Origin: a virus
Virus record (IMG/VR): IMGVR_UViG_3300030103_004598
Coordinates: 1 to 36,137 of that record
Strand: one strand, 5' to 3'
Length of the DNA stretch: 36,137 nt
Shown: positions 3,931-32,454 of the stretch, piece after piece
How positions within the stretch are numbered: the first letter of the stretch is position 1
Layout: every line of letters starts with the position of its first letter
The notes under the pieces: generated by a model
What the model was told of the DNA's origin: nothing
Database searches by the model: none
The model's input: only the letters and a program-made list of their open reading frames with translations
Program-made: the position numbers and the translations under genes

Positions 3931-3964
3931 CTGCTTACTCTCCTTTGTTTTTGTTTTCCCGTTA

Positions 3965-4075
3965 TTAAAATTCTTCAATTATGCGAGTATCCCAGAAAGT
4001 TACTAACTTCATTGGAGGACCCCATTTCTTTTTCCTTCTACGCTTATTTAAAGTTTTGTATTTACTAGTTCTCAC
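3965..4075 (-). CDS. Tiny basic protein, GTG start
   Basis: This 36-residue protein is strongly basic in its N-terminal half (NKRRRKKKW). It starts with GTG in a GTGA overlap (4075-4072) with the preceding coiled-coil gene and has GGAGGAG about eight bases upstream. It ends 34 bases before the SPFH start. The basic run could bind nucleic acid. The coupling and good SD make it likely to be translated. Confidence 0.45.
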   Translation of the reverse strand: MRTSKYKTLNKRRRKKKWGPPMKLVTFWDTRIIEEF

Positions 4076-5154: not shown

Positions 5155-6765
5155 TTATCTTGTTTTAAACACTTTATTTCGGTCTAAACCTCCACGCTTT
5201 TTATGAGAGTATTTACCTGTCCTCTTATACACAGCCGCACGGTTCTTGGATACTGTACCCATTAAGGGTTTCTCTAAAAGAACTACTGCTGCTAGCGAGT
5301 GGGCAATGACGCAATCATCGTGGTTTTTCCCAGTTGCACCCATGCGAGAACTCATGCCCGCATCTAATCTAACAAATGTTTTCATTTCTTCAAAGAGTTT
5401 TTTACTTCTAGGCTCAATTTCTCTTTCCCTCATTAAAGAATTCAACGCATCAATCATTACTGGCTTCGTTGATACTGTAGTCTTCCAGCCGAGTTTCTTG
5501 ATTCTTTGATTGTTCGCTTGATCGTATCGGACTTGTCTGTAAATATTGGGGTAATGCAAGTGTTTTTGAAGCCTATTTAACACTGAGTCTCCCATATTGT
5601 TTATTTCTGGGATAAGTAAAGCAGTATTGTACCACCTTCCCAGAGAATTAAGAATATTTGAGAACAAATCAGTATCTATGTGGGCTCTAAACTCTGCAAC
5701 TTGTACTTTAGTGGAGCGCTCATACACTGCAGCAACACTCCAATCATGCTTCTCTAAGCCTTCAGCAATGTCCGCTCCAATGACATATTGACCTCCAGCT
5801 TTAGGCTTTTGAAAGATCTTAAGCATTCCTCTGTCATTAGGGTAGAATACGCCTTTACCAGTTAAATCACCAAGCTGGAAACGATATTCTGGCTTGTTTA
5901 AGTAGTCTGCAATCATTTCTTGGTTGAATACGGTGTGCCCAGTAACAATAAATGCTTCAACATCATTACGAGGATACTCTTGCTTGAACTTTAGTAAAGC
6001 CTCCGTTCCTTGCGCTTCTGCTCTTCGGTATCGCATGTCGTACCAAGACTGGTCTCTACTGGGGTCGCCGTTCCATGAGATGAAGTTACATTTGAATCCG
6101 TTTTGACCGTCTTTACCCGCTGCCCAGGTTGCTTGAAAAAACTTGTCATAGCCGTTAGCCGTACTGATAATGATAGCGGGTCCACCTGTTTTCTCCAATG
6201 TCGGTTCTGCTGCTGTCCAGATTGTTGGCGCATCTACCATGAACGCAGCTTCATCCATGATTAACATGTTTAAAGTGTCAGAACGACCAGCTTCAGGGTT
6301 GGCAGATTCAGCCTTCATTTGTGATTCTACACCTTTAAGCTTTAAAAGCAAGCGATTTGATGTCTCTACGGGGTAAAGATTATCACGTATAATAGAAGGG
6401 AGATGATCATACATGAACTTAAGCTTGGCAAGGGCTGATATCGCTGCCTCTTCCTTCCTGGAGACAACTAGTCCCTCGAAATATTTCTGTTTCAGCATAT
6501 GCCATAAAGCAAAAGCTAAAGCAAGCCAAGTAATCCCAATTTGTCGGCTTTTAAGGGTCTCGTTAAGTTGATTCCCCATCCATATACTAATTTGATCTTT
6601 TTGTGCTGGCCATAATTTAAAAGGGATAGGTCGCCCAGCTTTTTGATCTTTTAGCATACAATAGTTTTCAATGAAAAATATACAATCGTCCATTGCCTTA
6701 ACCCAGTCGTCAGCAGCTCTTTCTAGCTGGATATCGAGCAATTCGTCTTCTTTTTGGCTACTCAT
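5155..6765 (-). CDS. terL: Terminase large subunit (packaging ATPase and nuclease)
   Basis: This 536-residue protein has the two-domain layout of the DNA-packaging motor. The ATPase half shows the terminase-type Walker A variant KSRQIGITW (residues 72-80), Walker B LIMDEAAF (168-175) and coupling motif IIISTANG (198-205). The nuclease half shows the acidic residues of an RNase H-like fold: D332 in GADIAEG, E387 in IPEIN, and D483/D484 in NHDD. Length is normal for the family. GAGGTG five bases before the ATG fixes the start. It is transcribed away from the portal gene and is on the opposite strand from the small subunit, an unusual arrangement. Confidence 0.95.
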   Translation of the reverse strand: MSSQKEDELLDIQLERAADDWVKAMDDCIFFIENYCMLKDQKAGRPIPFKLWPAQKDQISIWMGNQLNETLKSRQIGITWLALAFALWHMLKQKYFEGLVVSRKEEAAISALAKLKFMYDHLPSIIRDNLYPVETSNRLLLKLKGVESQMKAESANPEAGRSDTLNMLIMDEAAFMVDAPTIWTAAEPTLEKTGGPAIIISTANGYDKFFQATWAAGKDGQNGFKCNFISWNGDPSRDQSWYDMRYRRAEAQGTEALLKFKQEYPRNDVEAFIVTGHTVFNQEMIADYLNKPEYRFQLGDLTGKGVFYPNDRGMLKIFQKPKAGGQYVIGADIAEGLEKHDWSVAAVYERSTKVQVAEFRAHIDTDLFSNILNSLGRWYNTALLIPEINNMGDSVLNRLQKHLHYPNIYRQVRYDQANNQRIKKLGWKTTVSTKPVMIDALNSLMREREIEPRSKKLFEEMKTFVRLDAGMSSRMGATGKNHDDCVIAHSLAAVVLLEKPLMGTVSKNRAAVYKRTGKYSHKKRGGLDRNKVFKTR

Positions 6766-6790
6766 GTAACACCTCGTTTCATTTTTTTTC

Positions 6791-6818
6791 TTGACATGTT
6801 TTATATCATGGTTATATG
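6791..6818 (+). promoter_or_regulatory. Promoter of the late structural operon
   Basis: TTGACA at 6791-6796 and TATATG at 6813-6818 are separated by 16 bp in the 102-bp gap between the divergent terminase and portal genes. TGTAACAC occurs at 6765-6772 and again at 6819-6826, the second within a perfect inverted repeat TGTGT-A-ACACA (6817-6827) that overlaps the -10. These could be binding sites for a regulator controlling both directions. Confidence 0.6.
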
Positions 6819-6867
6819 TGTAACACAGTATACACTTTTAAATCAAATCAAATTTAGAGGGTAGATA

Positions 6868-8901
6868 ATGGTTGACTTAAAAATTAAGAAAAAAGCTAGG
6901 ATTGAACAAGACAATCGAGCTAAGTCTCTGTACTCCGAAAAACCGATCATCTTTCCCAGAAGAGATATTCCAGAAAAAGTGGCTGATTATGTATCAGAAT
7001 ATGAAGAATCTAAAGATTGGCAGAGAAGGAACTATGAGGAAGACTGGATTAGAAACTCAGCAGACTTCCAATCTATCCCAGGAGAAATATTTAAGCCTTG
7101 GGCTGATGCAAATGACTATTTCATGCCTTCGACAAATATTACTATTGAGAATTATGTGGCAAGATTCATGGAGTCAATCAGAGGCGCTAGAGAGTTCATT
7201 TCTTGTCGTCCAAGGGGGCGAGACGACATAGAGAGTGCAGCGATTGATGAACATCTATTACGTTACCAGTTTGAAAACGAAATGGACGGATTTAAGAACT
7301 CTGAACTAAATTTTAGAAATAAATGTATCTATGGAACTTCAATAAGCACTGTTCCTTATGTTATTGATGATAGACAAGTCAAAGTTGATGGAGTTTTCCT
7401 GTTTGATAATGAAAAAGACGCTTTTGTCATGGAAAGCGCAGAAGAGCAACCAGAAGAATCTTTAAGAGGGCCAAAAGATTTCTCTGATTTATCAGAAGAT
7501 GAAATTGATATGATTCTTGTCTCTAGCCCTTCTTTTGAAATAAGAGATTTGTTCGAGACTGTCAGAGTTAAAGATGGGCCTCAACTAGAAGTTCAGGACA
7601 TCATGAATGTTAAGATTGATCCTAATGGCGGGGATGATATCGATAAACATCAATTCACTTACATTGAAACTGTTGAAACGTTAGATACTATTAGGCGTAA
7701 AGTAGCCCAAGGGATCTATGATGAGAAGCAAGCTGATATGTTAGCTTCTACTTTATCTGATGATCAAGAGTTAGTTCCATCTGATGAGAATGGCTCCATT
7801 CGAAGACGTAATGCCGCTGAAGGGATCAGTGATGAGAACTACGGTATTAAAGGAGGAGTTAGGATTTGGATTAGATACGGTAGAGATGTTCTGCCGGATT
7901 TAGACCTAGAAGTAGAAACGATCAACATTATTGCTAATGGTAAGTATTTATTAAGAGCTCAAAAGACACCATTTGTTTATAAGGGAGTTCCTTACAGACC
8001 TATCCTTGTAGATAGATTTATCCAGATTCCACACAGATTCTACGGAATGGGTATCGCTGAAGTCTTGAAGGACCTTAACTATCTTTTAAACCATTTAGTT
8101 AACCAGGTCTTAAATCATGGGGATATCAGCAACTCTCCTACTTTAATTTATCCTCAAGATGGACAATTCGATCCAACTACAGCTATTAATGGCCCTGGTC
8201 AAACGATTGCTTCAGATAATAGCGACGGGTTTAAATTCTTAATCACCCCAGATATTAAAGCTTCTCAGGTGCAAATGATTCAGTTTGTAGAGAGCTTTCT
8301 TCAAAAGTCATTAGGGATTGCTGATTTTTCTTTGCAATCATCAGACGCTACAAAGACAGCACATGGGCTAGCAAATCAATTAAGAGAGCAGAATAGAAGA
8401 ATTGATTTCTACGCCAGCAAGTCACATGAGGATTACTACCGTAAAATGTTTGAGATCGTTTTAAAAATGGATCAAACGTTTATGGACGATAGAGAAATTC
8501 GATTAATCTCAGATAAGAGAAGCTGGGAATTTAAATGGATTGAATCTAAAAAAGTGAATCCAGAAGTTGATATTAGGATCTTTGCTGACTCTGTTACTTC
8601 AAGTAGAGAGTTCGATCAGATTAAATGGAATACATTATTGCAAGTGTCTCAACAAATTGTTGATCCAAACACGCAAGCACCTAAATATAATACGGTTAAG
8701 ATTACAGACCAATTATATAAAGCATTCGGGGAAGAGTATCCTGAAGTTTACCAGACAGAACAAACAGTGCAACAACAAGATCTACCTGGAGAAGAAGAAG
8801 GGCAAGGCGGTTCATTACAGGGAGAAACTCCTGGGATTGAAGGACCTAGTCCTACAGAGATCAATGCAGGTGGATTAGGGGATTTGGATTCACAACAATG
8901 A
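6868..8901 (+). CDS. Portal protein (P22-type)
   Basis: This 677-residue protein is similar in size and style to the P22 gp1 portal family. Its N-terminal part (SKDWQRRNYEEDWIRNSADF, then NITIENYVARFMES) and central stem/wing region (YRPILVDRFIQIPHRFYGMG, then LNYLLNHLVNQVLNHGD) resemble podovirus portals, with an acidic Q/E/G-rich C-terminal tail. The portal forms the dodecameric ring at one capsid vertex through which DNA is packaged and ejected. GAGGG lies before the ATG. It is the first gene of the late operon and couples by ATGA (8898-8901) to the next. Confidence 0.85.
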   Translation: MVDLKIKKKARIEQDNRAKSLYSEKPIIFPRRDIPEKVADYVSEYEESKDWQRRNYEEDWIRNSADFQSIPGEIFKPWADANDYFMPSTNITIENYVARFMESIRGAREFISCRPRGRDDIESAAIDEHLLRYQFENEMDGFKNSELNFRNKCIYGTSISTVPYVIDDRQVKVDGVFLFDNEKDAFVMESAEEQPEESLRGPKDFSDLSEDEIDMILVSSPSFEIRDLFETVRVKDGPQLEVQDIMNVKIDPNGGDDIDKHQFTYIETVETLDTIRRKVAQGIYDEKQADMLASTLSDDQELVPSDENGSIRRRNAAEGISDENYGIKGGVRIWIRYGRDVLPDLDLEVETINIIANGKYLLRAQKTPFVYKGVPYRPILVDRFIQIPHRFYGMGIAEVLKDLNYLLNHLVNQVLNHGDISNSPTLIYPQDGQFDPTTAINGPGQTIASDNSDGFKFLITPDIKASQVQMIQFVESFLQKSLGIADFSLQSSDATKTAHGLANQLREQNRRIDFYASKSHEDYYRKMFEIVLKMDQTFMDDREIRLISDKRSWEFKWIESKKVNPEVDIRIFADSVTSSREFDQIKWNTLLQVSQQIVDPNTQAPKYNTVKITDQLYKAFGEEYPEVYQTEQTVQQQDLPGEEEGQGGSLQGETPGIEGPSPTEINAGGLGDLDSQQ

Positions 8902-9233
8902 TTTATAATTTAAGACCACAATCGAAAGCACAACTTGAAGAATTGCAATCTTCTTTAAAGCGTCTTTCGAAAGAAAGCCTTCATTTCCTGATTAATCAAG
9001 AACTGAGAGCTAGAATTGATAGCGTTCGCAAAAGCGAATCTAATGCAGATGAGAAGATCGGAGCGATCAACCAGCTAATGGACATTACTGATTTCTTCAA
9101 TGGTTCACTTATGAATGAGTTGAACCAGATGATAGGGAAATATGATGTCCATGAAGAAAGTGACACAGCCACAAAAACGCTTGAAAAAGCAAAAAAACAA
9201 GAAGAATTCAAAGCGAGAGTTCTAAAAAAATAA
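8898..9233 (+). CDS. Hypothetical coiled-coil protein between portal and scaffold
   Basis: This 111-residue, mostly helical, charged protein starts MIYNLRPQSKAQLEELQ and ends in a Lys-rich tail. Its ATG overlaps the portal stop. Its position between portal and scaffold genes, conserved in many podoviruses, suggests a head-assembly accessory. No specific family is recognised. Confidence 0.65.
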   Translation: MIYNLRPQSKAQLEELQSSLKRLSKESLHFLINQELRARIDSVRKSESNADEKIGAINQLMDITDFFNGSLMNELNQMIGKYDVHEESDTATKTLEKAKKQEEFKARVLKK

Positions 9234-11248: not shown

Positions 11249-11560
11249 ATGCAAATTATTAGAGATGGTGTTAAGGCCCCAGTAAGACAATATCGAGGAT
11301 GTCTTTTGTTTGAATATAAAGGGCTAAGCACTCTTGATGTATATGATAAACATGAAGGCGATCAAGTAATTAAACTAATCACTAAAAACAACGGTAATAT
11401 TCAGATTTATATTACTCCAAAAGTACAATTGATTAAGGAGGTAGTACGACCTACTTCTGTAGAGATAGCTGAAGAACCAGCAAAAGTTGATGGAATAAGA
11501 CCAAGAAAACAAACACTTACTGCGAAGGATAAATTAAAATGTCGGGACGAAGCGAGCTAG
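11249..11560 (+). CDS. Hypothetical protein after the capsid gene
   Basis: This 103-residue protein starts MQIIRDGVKAPVRQYRG with predicted beta structure in its first half and a basic C-terminal tail. AAGGAGC precedes the ATG. Its 3' end overlaps the start of the next gene by 22 bases. Position suggests a head-completion or decoration role, but no motif supports this. Confidence 0.6.
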   Translation: MQIIRDGVKAPVRQYRGCLLFEYKGLSTLDVYDKHEGDQVIKLITKNNGNIQIYITPKVQLIKEVVRPTSVEIAEEPAKVDGIRPRKQTLTAKDKLKCRDEAS

Positions 11561-13173
11561 AAAGTATTGAAGAAAAAAAGATTTCATTTGTAATCCCTGT
11601 ACACGGGGAGTCTGGAATGTTCTTACCACGATGCATCCATTCTATCTTAGAACAAGATTATCCAAATAAGGATATCACAGTTGTATTTGATGGAGAAGAT
11701 CAATTCAAGGGCGCCTTAAGACAGCGTGAATTCTTTAAAGATGATGATAGAATTAAATTCTTCATTAAAAAACAAGGTGGCGCTCCTGCTGCTAGAAACT
11801 ATGGGTTAGACAACTCAGACGGATACTACGTTTGTTTCTTTGATTGCGATTCCATATTAAGAGCAGGTGCTATTAGATCCTGGGTTACAGCATTTGATGC
11901 AAACCAAGATTGTGATTTTGTCTATAATGGGTACCGATATACCATGAAAGACAAGTATCAAACAGGAGTTCTTGCAAAAGACTTCGATCCTCGTTTGTTG
12001 ACTTGCAATAATTATATTTCAACAATGAATCCTATTAAGCGTGACAAGTGCCCAAGGTGGGACGAAAGCTTAGAAGGACTTCAAGATTGGCATTTCTGGC
12101 TTCAAGCAGTTCATTTAAATGGTTCTAAAGGTGTTAAGATAGATGATAATCTAGTTGTCACTGAGCCTCCTAGTGAAGAATCACTTTCTGGAAAGACTCA
12201 CAAGAATCACTTAGAGATCTACAACAAAGTCAGAGAAAAGATTGGCATCAAGAAAAGAGAATGGGTCATAGGAACATCTGGAGCAGAGTTCCAATCCATG
12301 AGAAGAGCCCGTATCTTAGATGCAGATTATCATGATTTTGGGCTTTTAATGACTAAGCCTAATGATTACAAAGCAATTATCTCAATGGGCTTCTACGTAG
12401 AGACTCCGGCAACTCCTGGAGCTATTTTCTTTAAAGCGAATAAAGATTGCAAAAAGATTATTCACTTTATCGGAACAGATGTCTACCAACTATCTAAAGC
12501 AAGTTTTGGCGCTGTTAGACAGTTTGCAAAGAACTTACCTCCATTCGTAGATAAAATCCTATGTAATGCTCCTTGGTTGAAAGAAGAGCTAGGAGAAATG
12601 GGGTTAGATGCAGAGTTGGTTTATTGCCCACTTGAATCTGAGAAGCTACCATTTTATGAAGAACTACCAAAAGACTACACGGTCGCAGTGTACCGATCTG
12701 ATACAAACCCAATGTATCATGAATGGTTTATGATTGAAGCTGCTAAAGCTTTGCCAGACATTAAATTTAAGTTTTTTGGTGGAGAAGTTCCAAGATCATT
12801 AAATGGTGTTCCAAAGAATGTAGAGTACTTAGGGCGTGTTGCAGAAGAAGATATGCCAGAACTTATTAAGTCTACAAATTGTATCGCAAGGATATCATTG
12901 CACGATGGATTCCCCGCTTCTGTATCGGAATGGATCATTTCTGGGAGAGAAGCATTGTTTAATATTGAAGCAATGCCTGAAACTTCTTTTTGCGATATCC
13001 AACCAAGAGAAGAAACAATTATCCAAGATAAGAGAACATTCATTGAGAGCATCAGAAAAATGCAAAGGGATCCCAAAAACTTAGAGGATAGAAAGAAGTC
13101 ATCTAAGTTCTATAAAGAACTGCTATCTGTTGAAGCTTATAAAAGCAAAATGGAGAACATAATCAATGGATAA
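11539..13173 (+). CDS. Two-domain glycosyltransferase (GT2-like plus GT-B-like half)
   Basis: This 544-residue protein is a fusion. Residues about 14-230 are a GT-A family 2 domain: ISFVIPVHGE, an EQDYPN-DITVVFDG segment, GGAPAARNYGLDNSDG, and the metal/nucleotide-binding DCDS (102-105). Residues about 290-544 resemble the nucleotide-sugar-binding half of GT-B enzymes (FIGTDVYQL, KFKFFGGEV, VEYLGRVAEEDMPELI, SLHDGFPASVSEWI). It would transfer sugars to an unknown acceptor. It opens a block of glycan genes between the capsid and tail genes. Capsid or fibre glycosylation, or host surface-glycan modification, is inferred. Confidence 0.8.
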   Translation: MSGRSELESIEEKKISFVIPVHGESGMFLPRCIHSILEQDYPNKDITVVFDGEDQFKGALRQREFFKDDDRIKFFIKKQGGAPAARNYGLDNSDGYYVCFFDCDSILRAGAIRSWVTAFDANQDCDFVYNGYRYTMKDKYQTGVLAKDFDPRLLTCNNYISTMNPIKRDKCPRWDESLEGLQDWHFWLQAVHLNGSKGVKIDDNLVVTEPPSEESLSGKTHKNHLEIYNKVREKIGIKKREWVIGTSGAEFQSMRRARILDADYHDFGLLMTKPNDYKAIISMGFYVETPATPGAIFFKANKDCKKIIHFIGTDVYQLSKASFGAVRQFAKNLPPFVDKILCNAPWLKEELGEMGLDAELVYCPLESEKLPFYEELPKDYTVAVYRSDTNPMYHEWFMIEAAKALPDIKFKFFGGEVPRSLNGVPKNVEYLGRVAEEDMPELIKSTNCIARISLHDGFPASVSEWIISGREALFNIEAMPETSFCDIQPREETIIQDKRTFIESIRKMQRDPKNLEDRKKSSKFYKELLSVEAYKSKMENIING

Positions 13174-13927
13174 ACCAATCATTTCTTACGTAATACCTTG
13201 TTACAACTGCGAGACATCAATTATTGATACAGTAGAATCAATAAAGTACACTCATGAAGAAGCAATGCAAGCTAAAGAGAAGGAATCTCAATGGCCTAAC
13301 ATAGAAATTATTCTTGTCAATGATGGATCAACAGATGCAACAGGAATTATACTGGAGTACTTGAAGCAAGAGTATTCAAACGTAAGAGTGATTGATAACG
13401 GAAAAAACTTAGGCCGCGGTTGTTCTCGTAATAAGGGGAACGAAGCGGCAGAAGCTGATATTATTGCAGTTTTAGATTCGGATGATATCCATGTAGCGGA
13501 TAGAACTAATGAGATATTAAGTGTCTTTGAGGAAGAAACAAAGGCAGAGGTGTTTTACAGCAGCTTTTATATTAAGAACCTGGATACAAACGATATTGAT
13601 TTAAAGGTAGCTGGGAGAATAGACAGAGAATTCCTGCAAAAAACAGGGCAATTTAAGATAGGTCATTCAACAGTGGCTTATAAGAAAAAGACAATACAAA
13701 CATTCCCTTACAGTGAAGATAAGAACCATGATGATTGGGCTATGCTTTGGACAATGTTCTCGCATGGAGTGAAGTTCACCTACTCTGAAAAGCCACTTGT
13801 GACATATACATTCACAAACAAAGGCAGAGCTAACGAATTCATCCCGGGGAAACAAGAATCCATTTTAAGAAAAAAACAACAAATCATGGAGCCGTATTTC
13901 AAAGGAGAATCAGATGTCTCGAAATAA
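13166..13927 (+). CDS. Family 2 glycosyltransferase
   Basis: This 253-residue GT-A enzyme shows SYVIPCYNCETSI (7-19), EIILVNDGSTDATG (47-60), NLGRGCSRNKG (81-91) and the DxD-type AVLDSDD (101-107). It overlaps the end of the preceding glycosyltransferase and has GGAG upstream. The later KNHDDWAMLWTMF segment fits the acceptor/catalytic-base region of GT2 proteins. The sugar donor and acceptor cannot be told from sequence. Confidence 0.85.
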   Translation: MDKPIISYVIPCYNCETSIIDTVESIKYTHEEAMQAKEKESQWPNIEIILVNDGSTDATGIILEYLKQEYSNVRVIDNGKNLGRGCSRNKGNEAAEADIIAVLDSDDIHVADRTNEILSVFEEETKAEVFYSSFYIKNLDTNDIDLKVAGRIDREFLQKTGQFKIGHSTVAYKKKTIQTFPYSEDKNHDDWAMLWTMFSHGVKFTYSEKPLVTYTFTNKGRANEFIPGKQESILRKKQQIMEPYFKGESDVSK

Positions 13928-14234
13928 AGTTTGGACAATAAAAACAATGGCTAGCGGAGATAATACTTTACTAGCTGCTAGAGCTGGAAGAAGCGTTGAA
14001 CTGGTTCATGTCTTTATTTCAGTAAACAACCCTTGCGATATGTATTTCTTTTATGATGGGCCCAGTGGAGATGTTAAGGTTTTCCCAACACTCCATTTTA
14101 CCAGCAAAGGATCGTTCACAAGTAGGGATGGGATGAATTTAGATGTAGTGATTCCAGTAAACAAAGATTTGAAAGTAAACTTCTCTTCTGACCCTGGCAC
14201 AGAGCTTGGCTATATAGCGAGGTATGTAAACTAA
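13914..14234 (+). CDS. Small beta-rich structural protein (decoration or fibre-base type)
   Basis: This 106-residue protein has KTMASGDNTLLAARAGRSVELVHV-like opening strands and an ending LKVNFSSDPGTELGYIARYV. This resembles a widespread class of small phage beta-sandwich proteins encoded near fibre genes (pattern: SGDNTI-AA, central strands, G-I-Y-V end). The gene at 14785-15090 seems to be of the same general type. AAAGGAG precedes the ATG. It lies among glycosyltransferases, so it may be a glycosylated or glycan-associated virion component. Confidence 0.55.
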   Translation: MSRNKVWTIKTMASGDNTLLAARAGRSVELVHVFISVNNPCDMYFFYDGPSGDVKVFPTLHFTSKGSFTSRDGMNLDVVIPVNKDLKVNFSSDPGTELGYIARYVN

Positions 14235-14788
14235 TGGGAATGACAAATGGTGAGATCGTCGAGCAAGTAAAAGGGAAGGTTCAAGTTATTGATTTGAATA
14301 ATCTTAAATCGAATGAGTTTAAGGTTTTGAAGATTGTTGAAGTCCCAAAGAAAGTTGACGTTCCTAGATTTGTTAAAAGGAAAGTTGATGATCCTGTATT
14401 TGTAGAAAAAGAGATCGTTGTAGAGAATCACATCATTAAAGAAATAGTTAAAGAGGTTGAGGTTCCTAAGTACGTTGAAAAGATCGTTGAGGTGCCTAAG
14501 TACGTTGAGAAAGAAATAATTATAGAGAAGCCTGTCTACGTTGATATTGAGGTTAAGAGACCTAAATTTAAAGACGTAGAAGTTATTAACCCGATCTTTA
14601 AAGATACAGAGGTTGAGAGACCAGTATTCAAAGAGATAGAAGTTATTAATGCCAAGATAAAAGAGATCATTTTAGAAGTCGAGAGGCCTGTTTTTAAAGA
14701 TAAGATCATTTATGAGCCTATCTTCAGAGAGCAAGTCTTTCATTTAAAACAATTGCTAGATGAAAACAAGAAGGACTTAATTAAATGA
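14234..14788 (+). CDS. Repetitive Val-Pro-Lys-rich protein with alveolin-like repeats
   Basis: This 184-residue protein has residues about 35-170 made of imperfect 10-12-residue repeats, for example VEVPKYVEKI, VEVPKYVEKEI, EKPVYVDIEV, RPKFKDVEV, INPIFKDTEV and ERPVFKEIEV. The alternating V/I, E/K and P pattern resembles the charged-valine repeats of protist alveolin and articulin cytoskeletal proteins, and would form an extended beta or fibrous rod. There is no signal peptide or membrane helix. It couples to both neighbours (TAATG and ATGA). A fibre shaft or linker is plausible, but no phage family is recognised. Confidence 0.6.
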   Translation: MGMTNGEIVEQVKGKVQVIDLNNLKSNEFKVLKIVEVPKKVDVPRFVKRKVDDPVFVEKEIVVENHIIKEIVKEVEVPKYVEKIVEVPKYVEKEIIIEKPVYVDIEVKRPKFKDVEVINPIFKDTEVERPVFKEIEVINAKIKEIILEVERPVFKDKIIYEPIFREQVFHLKQLLDENKKDLIK

Positions 14789-15090
14789 GTGTAGATGCAG
14801 GAACATCTTTTAGAAATATTGGCGAGTTTTCTGACGTGCCTCCCGTTGCCGTAACTAATGCAGCCGCAACTTCTCACACGATTACAGCGGGTAAAGGCTT
14901 TGTCTTTTTTATGAACGTTGGAAATAAAATCGTTTGGTATGGGGGTTCAACTGTTGATCCGGCTACTAGCCGAGGGGCAAAGCTATTGCCTAATTCTGGA
15001 TTTGCTATCGAACAGCCCTCACAAACATTTAAAGTCTATTTTAAAACTGCATCTGGTGATACAAGCACAATAGGAGTAGTTGAAGGATGA
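14785..15090 (+). CDS. Small beta-rich virion-associated protein
   Basis: This 101-residue protein contains AATSHTITAGKGFVFFMNVG and KIVWYGGSTVDPATSRG, then FKVYFKTASGDTSTIGVVEG. The pattern suggests a beta-sandwich, similar in style to the gene at 13914. It is coupled by ATGA on both sides, between the repeat protein and the fibre gene, so it may form part of the fibre or its base. It is not recognised at family level. Confidence 0.55.
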   Translation: MSVDAGTSFRNIGEFSDVPPVAVTNAAATSHTITAGKGFVFFMNVGNKIVWYGGSTVDPATSRGAKLLPNSGFAIEQPSQTFKVYFKTASGDTSTIGVVEG

Positions 15091-16385
15091 CAGGCCCAAT
15101 CAACCAGCTTTATTTAAATCTTACTGAGGAGGACTTGTCGCCAGACACTTTCCCTTATCAGTTTAGATTCCCAAACTCCTCTCTTACTGACAATGGAGAT
15201 AGCACTCTATCAGTAAGCTTCATTAATGGAATCGGAGGACCTTTCACAGCAGGTTCAGTTATTTTTTCAGACGGGACTTTGCTTGCTGAAGATAATGCTA
15301 ATCTTTTTTGGGATGATACTAATAATAGACTAGGGATTGGTACTAATGCGCCTAGTGAACAACTTGAACTTACAAAGTCTATTGAACTTCCAACAACTAC
15401 AGCTTCAGATGAGGGCGTTATTTATAAGGATGGAAGGCGACAGTTTCACGATTTTCATCATCCGACAGGCAGCACTGCTATCCCCGCGGGTAAAAATACT
15501 TTTTTAGGGTACGAGTCAGGGAATTTTACAACAGGTAGTAACGCTACTATTACAGCTCATGGCTCTTATAATGTTGGGATCGGTAATCAATCTTTAAAGA
15601 ATATTGACAATGGATACATGAACGTAGCGATTGGTAATAGATCTATGGATGCCAACACAGACGGGATATTTAATGTTGGATTAGGAGGTGATACTTTAAC
15701 CACAAACACGACAGGTAGAAACAACATGGCAATGGGATTCAGATCTCTAAGATTTAATGTTGATGGTGATGATAATGTAGGTGCAGGAAGATCTTCGTTA
15801 GAGAACAGCACAAAAGACGATAATGTTGCTATTGGCTCTTGGGGTTTAGCTAAAATTACCACAGGCCAGGAAAATGCTGCTATTGGGTATAGATCAGGAT
15901 ATTATCATGCAGACGGATCAACCTTGTTAACCTCCACTGATCGTTCTGTGTATATAGGGGCATATGCGAAAGGTTATAACAATAATGACGACAACACTAT
16001 TGTTATCGGATACAACGCTATAGGGCTAGGGGCAAACACTTCAGTTATAGGAAACTCTAGCACCACAAAACATAAAGTATGGGGAACATTAGAAACTGAT
16101 AAAGGAAGAATAGTAAATATTACAAGAATAACGTCAGGACCTTATACAGCTTTAGCAACTGATCATCATATATTTGTAAATACAGACGCAGGAGCAATAA
16201 CTTTAAACCTTCCAGCAGGAGTAGATGGAACTAACTACAGGATTATTAATACAGGCTCTAGCGGAAATGACATCACTGTTGCACCAAATGGATCAGAGCT
16301 TTTAACTGGAGCTAATGCAAGTAAGACAATGTCAGATGGAACTGTTATAATATTAACATACGAAACTACCTCTGGATGGTGGTAA
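15087..16385 (+). CDS. Tail-fibre or receptor-binding protein with trimeric-autotransporter-like head repeats
   Basis: This 432-residue protein has an N-terminal part (to GIGTNAPSEQLEL) typical of phage fibre start domains with SDGTLLAEDNANLFWD. Residues about 145-320 repeat a NVAIGNRSM / NVGIGNQSL / NMAMGFRSL / NAAIGYRSG motif, the YadA/Hep_Hag head-repeat pattern that builds a left-handed beta roll in trimeric adhesins. The C-terminal part (TDHHIFVNTDAGAITLNLPAG, then GSELLTGANASKTMSDGT, ending SGWW) is a common phage fibre tip module. It probably binds the host surface. Confidence 0.75.
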   Translation: MTGPINQLYLNLTEEDLSPDTFPYQFRFPNSSLTDNGDSTLSVSFINGIGGPFTAGSVIFSDGTLLAEDNANLFWDDTNNRLGIGTNAPSEQLELTKSIELPTTTASDEGVIYKDGRRQFHDFHHPTGSTAIPAGKNTFLGYESGNFTTGSNATITAHGSYNVGIGNQSLKNIDNGYMNVAIGNRSMDANTDGIFNVGLGGDTLTTNTTGRNNMAMGFRSLRFNVDGDDNVGAGRSSLENSTKDDNVAIGSWGLAKITTGQENAAIGYRSGYYHADGSTLLTSTDRSVYIGAYAKGYNNNDDNTIVIGYNAIGLGANTSVIGNSSTTKHKVWGTLETDKGRIVNITRITSGPYTALATDHHIFVNTDAGAITLNLPAGVDGTNYRIINTGSSGNDITVAPNGSELLTGANASKTMSDGTVIILTYETTSGWW

Positions 16386-16396
16386 TTAAATAAAAA

Positions 16397-16678
16397 ATGA
16401 AAAATAAAAATATGAAACATTTATTCGAAAAAGTGACTGAAGACGAGAGACAAACTATCAAAATAACTGATGATAATGGTAATGAAACTATAACTAGAGT
16501 CTCAGAGCTAAGAGATGAGTATGCAAATATTGAAGAACGCATAGTTGAGACTGGAGATGAGCTACAATTCCTTCAAGCTAGAAAACAAGAGTTAAAAACG
16601 TTAGTAACAGAAGCTAAGGAAGCTCTTAATTTAGATGTAACTATCCCTAACGGAGATGAGGATCCAAGTGATGCTTGA
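16397..16678 (+). CDS. Hypothetical coiled-coil protein after the fibre gene
   Basis: This 93-residue protein has a probable helical hairpin (VSELRDEYANIEERIV, ELQFLQARKQELKTLVTEAKEAL) and an acidic tail. No good SD is visible for 16397; an internal ATG at 16412 is an alternative start. Its position directly after the fibre suggests a fibre-assembly partner, which is an inference. Confidence 0.5.
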   Translation: MKNKNMKHLFEKVTEDERQTIKITDDNGNETITRVSELRDEYANIEERIVETGDELQFLQARKQELKTLVTEAKEALNLDVTIPNGDEDPSDA

Positions 16679-16808
16679 TATTGATAAATTGAAAATAGAA
16701 TACTGCGAATTAATAATAAAGAATAAAGCTATAGCATCCAGACTTGCTGAGTTAGAAAGGCTTTTAGCCCCAATAATAATTAGAGAAAACAATAAAGAGA
16801 ATAAATAA
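16671..16808 (+). CDS. Small helical hypothetical protein (45 residues)
   Basis: The protein starts MLDIDKLKIEYCELI and ends with a basic/Asn-rich tail. It is one leucine-rich helix (SRLAELERLLAPII). It overlaps the previous gene by eight bases and ends one base before the next glycosyltransferase start, so it fills the gap precisely. GAGG lies about nine bases upstream. Function is unknown. Confidence 0.5.
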   Translation: MLDIDKLKIEYCELIIKNKAIASRLAELERLLAPIIIRENNKENK

Positions 16809-16809
16809 T

Positions 16810-17490
16810 ATGAAGATTTCATGCGTGCTGCCAATTTACAACACAGATTATCAGCTCTCCGATACATTAAATAGCTTATTGAATCAAGACTACGATAATA
16901 AGGAAATAATTGTTATTGACGATGGTAGCACGGATGAGATCACACCATTAAAGAACTACTACTTAAAAGAAGGTGTTGCTTGGATCACAATGAAGAACCG
17001 CTCAGGTGCCGCATTCTGTAGGAATTACGGAAACGCAAACTCAAATGGTGACATTGTTGCAGTATGTGATGCAGGAGATTTTTATCTTCCTAAAAGATTA
17101 TCAAAGATAGCACAGTTTTTTAAAGAGTCAAAAAAGGATATATTTTACTCGGACGTACAAGTTAACTCCCCCGTTAATAAACCGCTGTACGTTCAACAAG
17201 CGACCGTTTGGGATGGCTCTTCGAAACCCCCCATCAGCCATCCCACGGTTGCTTACTCTCGTGAAGTTGCGAATACATTACGCTACCACGAGAAGTCTTT
17301 AGATACGGATCTCTATGAGTTCTTCATGCTTGATGCCTACAGACATGGCTACAAGTTTGGATTCTTAAATGAGACCTTATGTTTAAAACTTGCATTAGAG
17401 AGCGCCCCTGATGTGAGAGATATAAAAAAGGCGAAGGAGTTAAAAACAGAAATGTATAAAAAATATAAAATAGAGGTATTGCAAGCATGA
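16810..17490 (+). CDS. Family 2 glycosyltransferase
   Basis: This 226-residue GT-A enzyme has SCVLPIYNTDYQL (4-16), EIIVIDDGSTDE (32-43), the RSGAAFCRNYGN acceptor-loop segment (64-75) and VAVCDAGDFY (83-92) in place of the usual DxDD, a variant seen in some active GT2 proteins. It is about the minimum length for a GT2 catalytic domain. Its stop overlaps the next gene (ATGA). Substrate is unknown. Confidence 0.8.
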   Translation: MKISCVLPIYNTDYQLSDTLNSLLNQDYDNKEIIVIDDGSTDEITPLKNYYLKEGVAWITMKNRSGAAFCRNYGNANSNGDIVAVCDAGDFYLPKRLSKIAQFFKESKKDIFYSDVQVNSPVNKPLYVQQATVWDGSSKPPISHPTVAYSREVANTLRYHEKSLDTDLYEFFMLDAYRHGYKFGFLNETLCLKLALESAPDVRDIKKAKELKTEMYKKYKIEVLQA

Positions 17491-18278
17491 GCAGTAAAGA
17501 AAGTACTCTAATTATTGGATCAGCTGGACAAGTTGGTCGAGCATTGTTTAGAGCAATGAAGCATAAATTCAATGTCTACAAGCAAGATATTGTTAAAATT
17601 CCCTGCAAGGAGGGGTTTAAGTATGACAAAGCAGACCCTAAGCAAGCTAGCGGTTTAATCACTCATATTTGCATTCCCTTTTCAGACAAGTTCGAAGAGG
17701 AGATTACTAAAGTATCTGAGACTTACAATCCATCTTTAATGATCATTCACTCTAGTATTAACCCTGGGACTACAAAGCTATTATTTGACAAAGGTTTAAA
17801 AGTAGTACATAGCCCAACGTTCTTTGATGAGAGAGACTTTAGAACAATCATTAATTGGAGGAAGCCTATTGGTTTTGATGATTCCGATCTAGGGGTTATT
17901 GCTATGAAGCATATATCTCAGTATTTGAATTGCGTCCCTGTTCAAGGGTCTAAGAATACAGAATTAGCAGAGATTTGTTTAGGGCTTTATTGCTCTGTCT
18001 GTGTAGGAGTCTGCCAAGAAATAGGAACTATCTTCAAAGCGATGGATTGTTCTTATGATATTATGACGGGGATGATTGACGAGCATAATATGGGTTGTAA
18101 TCAGTCTGGCAAGCCCCGTGAAATGTTAATGAATCCAGTTGATAAGAATAAGATCAAGAACGATTACAGGATTGAGAACATTAACCTTTTACCAATAAAC
18201 TTAGTGTCACCTTATTTCAAGCTGACAGTAAAATCGAATCAATTATTTAAAGAAAGAACAGGGGGAGACAATGTCTGA
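17487..18278 (+). CDS. NAD-binding nucleotide-sugar-dehydrogenase-like protein
   Basis: This 263-residue protein has an N-terminal Rossmann glycine motif (LIIGSAGQVGRALFRAM, 8-24), an aspartate near the end of the second strand (YKQDIVK), and IIHSSINPGTTKLL, matching the STxxPGTT loop of UDP-glucose/GDP-mannose dehydrogenases. The middle helix (ELAEICLGLYCSVCVGV) fits the domain-linking helix. Full dehydrogenases exceed 400 residues, so this is a short form without the C-terminal UDP-binding domain and perhaps without full activity. GAGGT precedes the start. Confidence 0.6.
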   Translation: MSSKESTLIIGSAGQVGRALFRAMKHKFNVYKQDIVKIPCKEGFKYDKADPKQASGLITHICIPFSDKFEEEITKVSETYNPSLMIIHSSINPGTTKLLFDKGLKVVHSPTFFDERDFRTIINWRKPIGFDDSDLGVIAMKHISQYLNCVPVQGSKNTELAEICLGLYCSVCVGVCQEIGTIFKAMDCSYDIMTGMIDEHNMGCNQSGKPREMLMNPVDKNKIKNDYRIENINLLPINLVSPYFKLTVKSNQLFKERTGGDNV

Positions 18279-18927
18279 TTTAGCAGAATACAAAGACAGG
18301 GAAGCGGCACACAAAGACCACATTGAAAACTATAGAACGAGAGGTTATGAAAAAGGCAAGTATGAAGACAACGCACCTGATAAATATCGCATCGATAGAC
18401 TTAAAGATCCAATTAAGCCGGGGAGTGTTATCCTCGATGTTGGATGCAACGATGGTGGGCTTGGAATGTTATTGCAACGAGAGGGAAACGTGGTTTATGG
18501 TGTCGACTTGGTCCAAGAATTAGTTGACTTAGCATGTGCTAAAGGTGTAATAGCTTCGCAGGGGTGCGTTGAAGAATTAAAATTTAAAGATGACTATTTT
18601 GACATAGTCGTTATGGCTGAGGTACTAGAGCATCTGTATGACCCGTGCGACGGATTGACCGAGATTGTTCGAGTCTTAGATAATGACGGGCTTTTCATTG
18701 GATCAGTACCTCATCCTAACGGCAACATGGGGCATGGTCATAAAGCAGACTATCACCAGAATGTCTTTGATGAAAAAGGACTCTACGATCTTTTAAGTAA
18801 GCACTTTAAGAATGTGGAGTTAGAGGCTACCCCATATCATGAAGACTACTGCAAAGCTTACAACATTAACCCAGTAATGAAGCAGTGGACTAACTGGGTA
18901 TGTTCGGGGGTGATTAAAAATGGATAA
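18271..18927 (+). CDS. Class I SAM-dependent methyltransferase
   Basis: This 218-residue protein has motif I VILDVGCNDGGLG (53-65), the acidic ribose-binding residue in VYGVDLV (D79), a CVEELKFKDDYFDIVVMAEVLEHL segment with motifs II-III, and GLFIGSVPHP after the fifth strand. It follows a dehydrogenase-like gene and precedes a glycosyltransferase, all overlapping, so a methylated sugar is the most likely product. Small-molecule rather than DNA methylation is expected because no DNA-methylase motif (DPPY/PC) is present. GGGGGAG precedes the ATG. Confidence 0.8.
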   Translation: MSDLAEYKDREAAHKDHIENYRTRGYEKGKYEDNAPDKYRIDRLKDPIKPGSVILDVGCNDGGLGMLLQREGNVVYGVDLVQELVDLACAKGVIASQGCVEELKFKDDYFDIVVMAEVLEHLYDPCDGLTEIVRVLDNDGLFIGSVPHPNGNMGHGHKADYHQNVFDEKGLYDLLSKHFKNVELEATPYHEDYCKAYNINPVMKQWTNWVCSGVIKNG

Positions 18928-20044
18928 GCCTTTAGCAGTTCTATTCCTTCACCTTGGCAATGCACCTATCGCATACTACAGAATGATAAACTTTGCAAAT
19001 AAGATGATGGAGATGGATGACATTAACCCTCTCTATCCTAAGTTTGATCCTAACAATCAAAACGTAAATGACTATGAAATAAACGTTGACAATCACATCA
19101 ATGATTTGACCAATATCGTCAGCATTTCAGATGTCGTCATTTGCCAGACAGTTCATGACACAAAGTTTGGTTGTATCATTCCAGCAATGAAGCAAACCTT
19201 TCCTCACATTCCCTGGATAATGGAGTGTGACGATCACCCTTTTGCTATTGAAGCAACTAATCCTTCTTTCAAATACACTGGGCAAGGAACTAATATTGAA
19301 CGTAACGCTTACGATCAAGCTTTAGACTCTGATGGTATCATAGTAAGTACTGAATATTTAAAATACCAATTCGGAGACCATTCTAATTATGTTCGAGTCA
19401 TTCCAAACAGCCTTGATTTTGATATTTGGGGTAAACTTAAGGCACCAAAGAAAGAAAAAGAAAAGGTAATCATTGGTTGGTCTGGAGCTTCTGGCCACCT
19501 AAAAGATCTTTCAATTGTTTCTAAGCCATTACTTCATATTCTAGAAAAGTATCCTCAAGTAGAGGTGAATTGTCTTCATGGTGCTATTGAATGCATTGAT
19601 CATCCTCGTTTTAAGAATGAGAATGTGTGGACTAATATTCTAGATTACCCAGAGAAGCTGGCCAGTAAAGGTTTTGATATTGGGATAGCTCCTCTATGGG
19701 ATAGTGATTTTAATAGAGCTAAAAGTAACTTACGATATTTAGAATACAGTGCTTTAAAGATCCCTACTGTGGCAAGCAATTGTGGACCTTACAGAGAAAC
19801 GATTACTCATGGTGAAGATGGGTTCTTATGTAACAGTGTTTCAGAATGGGTTGACAATCTGTCTTTAATGATAGAAAATGTAGCCGAAAGAAAAAGAATT
19901 GCAAATAGTGCATACAATTTAGTACAATCAAAATTCAATGTTTCCGATGTTGCGCGAGATTACGCCGACTTGCTTAAAGAATTTGTAGAAGAATACAGAG
20001 CAAGGAGTAAAACCGATGTCAACATTCCAGCAGTTACAGGATAG
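18920..20044 (+). CDS. GT-B glycosyltransferase (family 4-like)
   Basis: This 374-residue protein is GT-B-like. It shows VIPNSLDFDIWGK (about 164-176), VIIGWSGASGHLKDL (start of the C-terminal Rossmann domain), GFDIGIAPLWDSDFNRAKSNLRYLEYSALKIPTVAS and GEDGFLC, the acceptor/donor-binding region of family 4 enzymes (an E-x7-E-like segment is modified). It is the last glycan gene. Its 3' end overlaps the tail-adaptor gene by 29 bases, so the glycan block is inserted cleanly into the late operon. Confidence 0.8.
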   Translation: MDKPLAVLFLHLGNAPIAYYRMINFANKMMEMDDINPLYPKFDPNNQNVNDYEINVDNHINDLTNIVSISDVVICQTVHDTKFGCIIPAMKQTFPHIPWIMECDDHPFAIEATNPSFKYTGQGTNIERNAYDQALDSDGIIVSTEYLKYQFGDHSNYVRVIPNSLDFDIWGKLKAPKKEKEKVIIGWSGASGHLKDLSIVSKPLLHILEKYPQVEVNCLHGAIECIDHPRFKNENVWTNILDYPEKLASKGFDIGIAPLWDSDFNRAKSNLRYLEYSALKIPTVASNCGPYRETITHGEDGFLCNSVSEWVDNLSLMIENVAERKRIANSAYNLVQSKFNVSDVARDYADLLKEFVEEYRARSKTDVNIPAVTG

Positions 20045-30880: not shown

Positions 30881-31107
30881 TGCAAAGCGACGTATGGACT
30901 AAGTTCAAAAGAACATCAGGGAGTGAATGCTTTCCATCTAACAATCCAGGTGATTCACCTTTTGATACGTTTGAATGCATTGATTGCAGTCATACTTTTA
31001 GCCTGAGGATGTATGGAATAAATATCTATACAAAATCTTTAGAAGAGCAAGCCTTAGATACATTGAGAGATCACTTACTAGTAAAACATATCATGGAGGA
31101 GAAATAA
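30880..31107 (+). CDS. Small C2H2-like zinc protein
   Basis: This 75-residue protein has CIDC (34-37) and a C-terminal LRDHLLVKH (H64, H69), giving a C-x2-C...H-x4-H arrangement that can bind one zinc. GAGGAGGAG precedes the ATG. It lies directly before SSB, with a TAATG overlap. A DNA-transaction role is a reasonable guess. Confidence 0.6.
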   Translation: MQSDVWTKFKRTSGSECFPSNNPGDSPFDTFECIDCSHTFSLRMYGINIYTKSLEEQALDTLRDHLLVKHIMEEK

Positions 31108-31493
31108 TGGGATCATATAATAAAGCAACATTTGTGGGGAATCTAACAAGAACACCAAAAGAGGTGGCGACTAAATCTGGAAAGACTATGGCTTCATTTG
31201 GGCTAGCAGTAAACGACAGATTCAAGAAAGATGGTGAGACTTTATTTATAGATATATTAACCTTCGGTAGGACTGCTGAGTTCTGCTTGCAGTACTTAGA
31301 AGTTGGAGTAAACATTCTAGCAGAGGGGAATATCAAGCTTGGAATGTGGACCGACAACCAAGGCAAATCTAAACCAACACTTACTTTAATGGCTAATGAT
31401 GTGATTTCTAACAGCAGGGCTGAAAAGAAAGAAAAGCCTGAAGACGACCCACACTTTAACTTACCACCACAAGATGACGAAATACCATTTTAA
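31107..31493 (+). CDS. ssb: Single-stranded DNA-binding protein
   Basis: This 128-residue OB-fold protein has NKATFVGNLTRTPKEVATKSG (5-25), FLDI-type core FIDILTFGRTAEFC (47-60) and VNILAEGNIKLGMW (68-81). It ends in an acidic tip DDEIPF, matching the SSB C-terminal tail that recruits replication and repair proteins. It has an upstream TAATG overlap. It works with the ERF/nuclease pair and during replication. Confidence 0.93.
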   Translation: MGSYNKATFVGNLTRTPKEVATKSGKTMASFGLAVNDRFKKDGETLFIDILTFGRTAEFCLQYLEVGVNILAEGNIKLGMWTDNQGKSKPTLTLMANDVISNSRAEKKEKPEDDPHFNLPPQDDEIPF

Positions 31494-31500
31494 ACACATT

Positions 31501-31562
31501 CCCTGCCTCGGGTTTATATTAACTAAACTTGGTTAAGTATAAAAAAGACACCCAGGGCAGGG
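31501..31562 (+). other. Long stem-loop between ssb and the first Ser-X repeat gene
   Basis: CCCTGCCTCGGGT (31501-31513) pairs with ACCCAGGGCAGGG (31550-31562) with two internal mismatches. Inside, TTAAC (31519-31523) pairs with GTTAA (31532-31536). No U-run follows, so a structured leader or RNase-stable 3' end of ssb mRNA is more likely than a terminator. Confidence 0.5.
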
Positions 31563-31595
31563 ATACCTTTAACTTAAGCAAAAAGGAATATAAAA

Positions 31596-31760
31596 GTGAA
31601 TCAAGCGATACTTCGGGCAGGATTCGATTGGAGTGGGAGTAGGAGTGGGAGTGGGAGTAGGAGTTGGAGTAGGAGTAGGAGTGGGAGTGGGAGTAGGAGT
31701 TGGAGTAGGAGTGGGAGTTGGAGTAGGAGTAGGAGTTGGAGTGGGAGTGGGGTTAACTAA
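31596..31760 (+). CDS. Ser-X dipeptide-repeat protein, copy 1 (GTG start)
   Basis: This 54-residue protein begins [12 protein letters not shown] and then is a strict Ser-X repeat with X = Gly, Arg or Trp to the end (GVN). Every repeat serine is AGT and every X codon is NGG. Bases 31626-31756 of the + strand contain no C and have a GG every six bases. The leader (AAAAAGGAATATAAAA, 31580-31595) is repeated before the gene at 31791. The head is almost identical to that of the gene at 32147. It is not a recognised family, and the low-complexity body would be disordered. The conserved head and SD argue for translation. Confidence 0.55.
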
Positions 31761-31790
31761 ACAGTTATAAATATAAAAAAGGAATATAAA

Positions 31791-32150
31791 ATGAATATAG
31801 ATATAAATGAGCTAACACTAGGACAAGTTAAAGAATTAAATAATATGATGAATAAAAATTCAAATGTTAAGGAATCAAACCAACCATTCAAAATAGGCAA
31901 AGCTTACTTATTCCGACTAGTGACGCACATTGACATAGGTGTCGTGAAAGACGTTGGAGAGAAAGAAATTGTTTTAACGAATGCGTCTTGGATTGCTGAC
32001 ACTGGCCGTTACAATGAGTGTTTTAAAAAAGGTGTTGATGGTTTAAATGAGGTGGAACCCTATCCTTTAGATCAAGAAGTCATCATCGGTCGCGGGGCTC
32101 TTGTAGATTCTACGATTTGGAACCATAAATTACCTACGGAAGCTAAATGA
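31791..32150 (+). CDS. Conserved small phage protein between the Ser-X repeat genes
   Basis: This 119-residue protein has a compact C-terminal domain: [20 protein letters not shown] (36-55), [20 protein letters not shown] (59-78) and [19 protein letters not shown] (97-115). I have seen similar small domains, with an -A-W-TGR- core, in other phages and recall them beside low-complexity repeat proteins, but cannot confirm it here. The SD module AAAAAGGAATATAAAA is shared with copy 1. It overlaps copy 2 (ATGA, 32147-32150). The function is unknown. Confidence 0.65.
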
Positions 32151-32338
32151 TGAGCCAAGCGATATTAAGAGCCGGTTATGATAACTCTAACTCTAGGTCT
32201 TTGTCTGGGTCTTGGTCTTTGTCTGGGTCTTGGTCTGGGTCTGGGTCTTGGTCTGGGTCTAGGTCTTGGTCTTGGTCTAGGTCTGGGCCTAGGTCTAGGT
32301 CTTTGTCTAGGTCTGGGTCTAGGTCTTTGTCTAATTAA
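32147..32338 (+). CDS. Ser-X dipeptide-repeat protein, copy 2
   Basis: The protein has 63 residues from ATG 32147, or 62 from ATG 32150. It begins [16 protein letters not shown], then Ser-X repeats with X = Gly, Arg, Trp or Leu. Here the serines are TCT and X codons are NGG or TTG, unlike the AGT serines of copy 1. The QAILRAG-aromatic-D head is shared with copy 1 (31596). A second frame across the same repeat is also open and would give a Gly-Leu repeat; the Ser-X frame is preferred because of the head and the coupling to 31791. Confidence 0.6.
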   Translation: MMSQAILRAGYDNSNSRSLSGSWSLSGSWSGSGSWSGSRSWSWSRSGPRSRSLSRSGSRSLSN

Positions 32339-32344
32339 CAATTT

Positions 32345-32454
32345 CCCCGTCTTTATTAATCAAATTTGGCGATGAGAGCAGTACTGGCGGGGATTTATTA
32401 AACCTATGTTAAAGAAATTGAGTTTTGTTAACACAGATTGAAACTATGTTAAAG
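32345..32454. other. Hairpin and short direct repeat in the gap after Ser-X copy 2
   Basis: In the 124-bp gap 32339-32462, TCCCCGTC (32344-32351) can pair with GGCGGGGA (32386-32393) across a 34-nt loop. CTATGTTAAAG occurs twice, 40 bp apart (32404-32414 and 32444-32454). There is no U-run and no clear promoter. Confidence 0.4.

Follow-up and report, generated by a model that had tools for sequence, protein, structure and literature searches.

The window analyzed here is the complete virus record IMGVR_UViG_3300030103_004598, a stretch of 36,137 bases. It encodes a portal and a major head protein, and its right-hand early region encodes an Erf-like annealing protein, an exonuclease, a single-strand DNA binding protein (SSB) and a DnaD-like helicase loader. 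Between the SSB and loader genes lie three plus-strand ORFs: a Ser-X dipeptide-repeat ORF (copy 1), a middle gene, hereafter the partner, and a second Ser-X ORF (copy 2; Table 1). The inverted repeat that precedes copy 1 is possibly a terminator or regulatory stem. A 29-nt leader segment is present twice, ahead of copy 1 and ahead of the partner gene. The original prediction held that both repeat ORFs share leader modules with the middle gene. This is true of copy 1, which has the 16-nt leader, but not of copy 2, which lacks it and overlaps the stop of the partner gene. The +1 frame of copy 2 is open as well (positions 32178-32375), starting from an ATG within the head and specifying 65 residues with Leu-Gly repeats. 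This frame is probably incidental, as every TCTNGG array yields one.

Table 1. Features of the Ser-X/partner locus in the window.
Feature	Position	Strand	Details
SSB gene	31107..31493	+	Replication/recombination context
Imperfect inverted repeat between SSB and copy 1	31500..31563	+	Two 21-nt arms, 76% complementary, 22-nt loop
16-nt leader, ribosome-binding-like, ahead of copy 1	31580..31595	+	AAAAAGGAATATAAAA; identical copy at 31776-31791, ahead of the middle gene
Ser-X repeat ORF, copy 1	31596..31760	+	GTG start, 54 aa, 20 AGT serines, X = Gly/Arg/Trp
Partner (middle) gene	31791..32150	+	119 aa, member of subfamily A; fold predicted to be Sm/LSm-like (pLDDT 90.6); no match in family libraries
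ATGA shared by the partner stop and the copy 2 start	32147..32150	+	4 nt
Ser-X repeat ORF, copy 2	32147..32338	+	ATG start, 63 aa, 24 TCT repeat serines, X = Gly/Arg/Trp/Leu/Asn

The two repeat ORFs are indeed twins with a common head. The head comprises 12 residues in copy 1 and 13 in copy 2 and is followed in each by (SX)n. Within the heads, the only amino-acid changes are N/S and F/Y, with W/N following at the repeat junction. The head DNA differs mostly silently: the codons for Leu (CTT/TTA), Arg (CGG/AGA), Ala (GCA/GCC) and Gly (GGA/GGT) carry four silent differences, two of them by two bases. The serine codons were predicted to be exclusively AGT in copy 1 and TCT in copy 2. This applies to all 20 serines of copy 1 and to all 24 repeat serines of copy 2, but the head of copy 2 contains one AGC serine. 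Similarly, X was described as Gly, Arg or Trp plus Leu and one Pro break. Those four residues were found, but Asn also occurs, and the Pro occupies a Ser position, having arisen as TCT->CCT.

Pattern scans of IMG/VR for TCT and AGT arrays revealed short conserved heads ahead of the arrays in many contigs; array counts from these scans are of the matches listed and are lower bounds. Among the matches listed, the gene immediately upstream in 68 of 93 array loci belonged to a single sequence cluster that includes the middle protein of the window, and no partner was visible in the record itself at about nine array loci. The cluster comprises two subfamilies, A (the window type) and B, which are homologous by profile comparison (96.5%, E 9e-10). 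Subfamily A heads resemble MNQAILRxGFD and subfamily B heads are basic, e.g., MIKKSIYKRNIW or MRGLKQKYR.

Loci were also selected using the partner alone. One 8-residue, profile-derived pattern retrieved 392 relatives of subfamily A, of which 80 were kept; stricter patterns taken directly from the window protein matched none. A1 was too diverse for a pattern search; the B search, made with A4, gave 132 relatives, of which 80 were kept. A locus was scored as paired if a Ser-X ORF started within 160 nt of the partner stop. The original prediction implied that homologous loci carry a repeat ORF, and a Ser-X ORF lay directly downstream of the partner in 80/84 loci of subfamily A and 70/80 of subfamily B (150/164 together), as compared to 11/1553 when the identical rule was applied to other gene ends of the same loci. 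Reading the output by eye, the ten B exceptions comprised six with a short or contig-truncated Ser-X stretch, one at a contig edge and three without an array. Among MAG contigs with the partner, 10 of 12 carry the repeat ORF.

Array and partner were on the same strand in 127 cases and on opposite strands in none. The commonest arrangement was an exact 4-nt overlap of the array start with the partner stop, found in 67/121 A loci and 43/103 B loci. Copy 2 has all the features of the family, namely a short head, dipeptides of Ser and Gly, Arg or an aromatic residue, and a position immediately after the partner gene on the strand that they share. Copy 1 precedes the partner gene and has a leader of its own. 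The predicted tie to the conserved small protein is thus borne out: the gene pair recurs with five serine codons, and searches based on the partner alone retrieve the repeat ORF almost always. We have very little doubt that the Ser-X/partner module is real, and that it is a coupled and widespread gene pair. On the minus strand of contig L002 (reverse-complement coordinates 5543-8955), a single partner gene is followed by 13 or more Ser-X arrays, mostly consecutive; each has a near-identical basic head, and together they form a tandem gene family.

The pair is nearly absent from cultured phages. Clear matches were present in 2 of 50,697 phage records, both from one spring that had been sampled environmentally. 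One of these, phage ctTUS972 (Manatee Spring), carries the pair with TCG serines and an ATGA overlap identical to that of the window. In the Microbacterium phages Mashley, Squash and Nike, a marginal match to the partner within a larger protein (about 30% identity, E 5e-3 or worse) was rejected, and no arrays were found near the partner-like gene in the two that were inspected, Mashley and Nike. A plasmid search using the window protein returned no match. In locus L328, the pair lies within a 649-kb contig binned as Isosphaeraceae. This is perhaps a prophage in a planctomycete and, if so, a possible route to a host.

The partner had no convincing match in Pfam, PHROG, NCBIfam, PADLOC or the sequences of the PDB. 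Specifically, no match to LSM or Hfq profiles, which represent the families with Sm1/Sm2 motifs, was found in Pfam, PHROGs or NCBIfam. AlphaFold models of the B partner and the window protein had pLDDT values of 92.6 and 90.6, respectively. The predicted fold consists of an N-terminal helix and a five-stranded bent barrel, as in Sm/LSm proteins, and the top Foldseek matches were nearly all Sm/LSm. Using VIA-align, the best match of the B partner was to Sm/LSm, with a Z-score of 10.6 over 65 residues at 1.7 Å. The best match of the window partner had a Z-score of 9.5 over 68 residues at 2.0 Å, and its Foldseek E value was only 1.5e-3. Because small barrels look alike, we describe the partner as Sm-like by predicted fold and not as a member of the Sm family.

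The heads of the repeat proteins are under protein-level constraint: in 55 subfamily A heads, pS was 0.76 and pN was 0.42 at positions outside the alignment motif. Moreover, head class tracks partner class. An R-x-G-[aromatic-like]-[acidic] motif was present in 54/108 A heads and 0/91 B heads, and the mean net charge of the head was 0.5 in A versus 3.6 in B (Mann-Whitney p about 1e-29). Within subfamilies, the correlation between head and partner similarity was weak (Mantel r 0.35 and 0.22, p 0.001) and may reflect shared ancestry only. The correspondence between classes is a sign of long co-inheritance. Docking of the head on the partner would fit these data but is not proven by them.

The basic heads, together with the richness of the arrays in Arg and Trp, resemble cationic peptides and raise the question of whether the product is directed at the host, as an antimicrobial-like, lysis-helping or host-factor-blocking peptide whose hypervariability aids escape from host counter-measures. 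The arrays are hypervariable, and several copies can occur per genome, with up to 13 in one locus. However, no obvious signal peptide or transmembrane stretch was seen when the heads were read by eye, and the genes lie in the early DNA-metabolism region and not beside lysis genes. PADLOC, which covers defence and hardly counter-defence, returned no match. On balance, a host-directed role is unlikely.

The arrays occur in serine-codon dialects. In partner-selected loci, the dominant serine codon was TCG in 60 (37 in A and 23 in B), TCT in 48 (14 and 34), AGC in 20 (17 and 3), TCA in 19 (10 and 9), AGT in two (one in each) and TCC in one (A). The purity of the serine codon within an array was usually near 0.95. 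In the well-sampled dialects, the shares of Gly, Arg and Trp among the X residues were about 0.30-0.42, 0.22-0.34 and 0.23-0.31, respectively; larger deviations were seen in the few arrays written with AGT or TCC. The codon usage of the genome was rejected as the cause of the dialects, the array codon being the first choice of the genome in only 42/127 cases. In arrays of at least 12 units, mixed codons were found for Ser in 15/180, for Arg in 14/151 and for Gly in 12/161. We attribute this loss of synonymous alternatives to fast unit turnover. Gly, Arg and Trp were nevertheless each present at least twice in 161 of 180 such arrays, and the retention of all three despite turnover suggests selection on composition.

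About 87% of X codons are NGG. As Gly, Arg and Trp are exactly the residues of the NGG codon box, the X pattern by itself is ambiguous between DNA and protein. Accordingly, the repeat might work as nucleic acid with the peptide incidental, presenting NGG at six-base intervals in the DNA or the mRNA. Variants include a G-rich RNA bound by the Sm-like partner, a quadruplex or a recombination hot spot. The retention of NGG across nearly all dialects is in keeping with such a role, as are the fast turnover of the repeats and the behaviour of TCT arrays, where the first two bases of TCT vary more than the third. In these arrays, synonymous serine-codon changes were rarer than nonsynonymous ones: 1 versus 11 in partner-selected loci of subfamily A, and 19 versus 95 among the matches listed in the pattern-selected set, counts that are not independent because units duplicate. 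Fast homogenisation, the only explanation that we offer, may account for this deficit. Simple purifying selection at every serine codon does not: it holds for AGC/AGT, is less clear for TCG/TCA and fails for TCT arrays.

Against a nucleic-acid role, the remaining bases of the hexamer change completely between loci, always to another serine codon; the heads differ mainly silently and the arrays are in frame with them. In addition, other period-6 GG arrays, with CTC, TTC or AAC units, are without the partner and were rejected as family members. Two loci leave NGG while keeping the peptide pattern. In L365, TCG serines are combined with CGC, GGC and TAC to give Ser-[Arg/Gly/Tyr], with Tyr replacing Trp because a third-base C leaves Trp unavailable. 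In L273, X departs from NGG and Ser-[Arg/Gly/Trp/Ala] is retained. A search for the third-base-C Ser-X pattern matched 120 loci, all of them without the partner, which makes L365 an isolated dialect and a useful control. Taken together, the heads, the free choice of serine codon between loci, the pairing, the composition and exceptions of the L365 type argue for the protein reading, and a role of the repeat as nucleic acid is distinctly unlikely. What is conserved is protein composition and pairing, not DNA.

The arrays evolve very fast in DNA while their aromatic content stays constant. Arrays differed despite 97-100% identical partner DNA in four pairs of loci (L339/L340, L391/L394, L188/L204 and L048/L049), and the differences in array length at identical partners were multiples of six (84, 90, 6 and 6). 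The order of X was close to random, with neighbour ratios of 0.92-1.05. Repeated X 5-mers numbered 3.1 versus 0.95 in shuffles, and this excess is a mark of local duplication. In 95 partner-selected arrays of at least 20 units, the aromatic share of X (mean 0.26) had a variance 0.87 times the binomial value; the variances of the Gly and Arg shares were about 2.1-2.2 times binomial. The original prediction had attributed the common pattern either to selection on the protein or to independent growth of the repeats. Both are partly true: turnover of the arrays is very rapid in DNA, and the protein grammar is retained. The spread of the pair, the predicted Sm-like fold and the identity of Gly/Arg/Trp with the NGG box were beyond what that prediction could show.

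Local unit duplication and six-base length steps between viruses with identical partners are also what a functionless simple-sequence expansion, tolerated after a short coupled ORF, would produce. However, the array is near-universal beside the partner, the heads are conserved, the aromatic share is constant and all three residues are kept in most arrays, making this explanation quite improbable. Finally, early NGG codons in a message reduce expression in Escherichia coli, and the array is coupled to the partner by overlap, but a translation device, in which NGG runs slow ribosomes or sequester tRNAs and so regulate the coupled partner or host translation, is highly improbable, as arrays begin about 10-13 codons in, the serine codon varies freely, and the conserved heads and the Tyr dialect would be left unexplained.

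Our best explanation, which we favour tentatively, is that the widespread phage Ser-X repeat proteins work with the Sm-like partner, and that their disordered chain binds or condenses nucleic acid. Given the observed gene arrangement, the phage would make the partner and the coupled repeat protein from the early DNA-metabolism region. The head of 10-13 residues would then dock on the partner or on something partner-specific. The disordered chain would act multivalently, with Arg and Trp/Tyr as stickers and Ser/Gly as spacers, such that composition and length matter and order does not. Its target may be RNA or single-stranded DNA, or it may form a condensate that concentrates replication/recombination factors. 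Action would fall in the early replication/recombination phase, in the manner of the RG-rich tails beside eukaryotic Sm cores.

The composition of the arrays is that of a sticker-spacer chain: Arg and aromatic residues are set in Ser/Gly, X adjacency is near random, aromatic variance is at the binomial level and arrays are scrambled between close relatives. Multivalent Arg/aromatic contacts would explain why order is free while aromatic content is fixed. In other proteins, Arg-Tyr stickers and Gly-rich spacers drive phase separation (PMC12772222), and the FUS prion-like domain evolves rapidly with its tyrosines fixed (PMC7947763). It is possible, if somewhat doubtful, that the pair represents a new class of phage ribonucleoprotein-like module, in which an Sm-like protein acts with a separate, hypervariable and order-free chain that condenses nucleic acid, its composition being held while sequence and codon dialect are rewritten.

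The proposed module shares features with several known systems. Like Sm/LSm proteins (spliceosomal Sm D1/D3/B with RG-rich tails, archaeal SmAP and Hfq), it combines a predicted Sm fold with an accompanying low-complexity Arg/Gly chain. Unlike them, the phage partner matches no LSM profile, and the phage chain is a separate coupled gene, strictly alternating in Ser and rich in Trp. FUS-type sticker-spacer regions and silk proteins similarly have Arg and aromatics spaced by Ser/Gly, and FUS-type regions also evolve rapidly in order with aromatic content kept (compare PMC7947763 and PMC12772222). The phage chain differs in its strict dipeptide alternation and very short length, and nearly all arrays have Trp in place of Tyr. 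In the C9orf72 dipeptide-repeat proteins, a hexanucleotide repeat is likewise read as a dipeptide repeat, but those proteins arise in disease from the expansion of a non-coding sequence, whereas the phage ORFs have a start codon, and their heads and partner are conserved. SR proteins and protamines resemble the phage chain in their Ser-Arg dipeptides, positive charge and nucleic-acid context. By contrast, phage X is only about a third Arg and a quarter Trp, and there is no domain in common.

A literature search, incomplete for subscription papers and preprints, returned no description of phage Ser-X dipeptide proteins or of the Ser-X/partner pair. The ingredients (Sm fold, RG-rich tails and dipeptide repeats) are known; the combination, the Ser alternation, the codon dialects and the hypervariability match no system known to us. 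The pair, carried by several hundred or more contigs of uncultured viruses, is unnamed, lacks a family model and is almost without cultured representatives. It is also a natural experiment on low-complexity proteins: because different serine codons have been used to rebuild one peptide grammar, the effect of selection on composition can be told apart from the dynamics of DNA repeats. If the chain does condense nucleic acid with its Sm-like partner, phages would be using a two-gene minimal version of the RG-/SR-rich tails of eukaryotes.

Elsewhere in the window, the region right of the major head protein gene (positions 11539-20044) contains three family-2 glycosyltransferases, one group-1 glycosyltransferase and one methyltransferase. 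This cluster is situated within the structural region, as would be expected if glycans of the host or the virion itself were modified by the phage. Positions 14234-14788 encode a protein containing degenerate VEVPKYVEKIVEVPKYVEKEI-type repeats. Lastly, a Band 7/SPFH-domain protein, unusual for a phage of this size, is encoded on the minus strand at 2911-3978.
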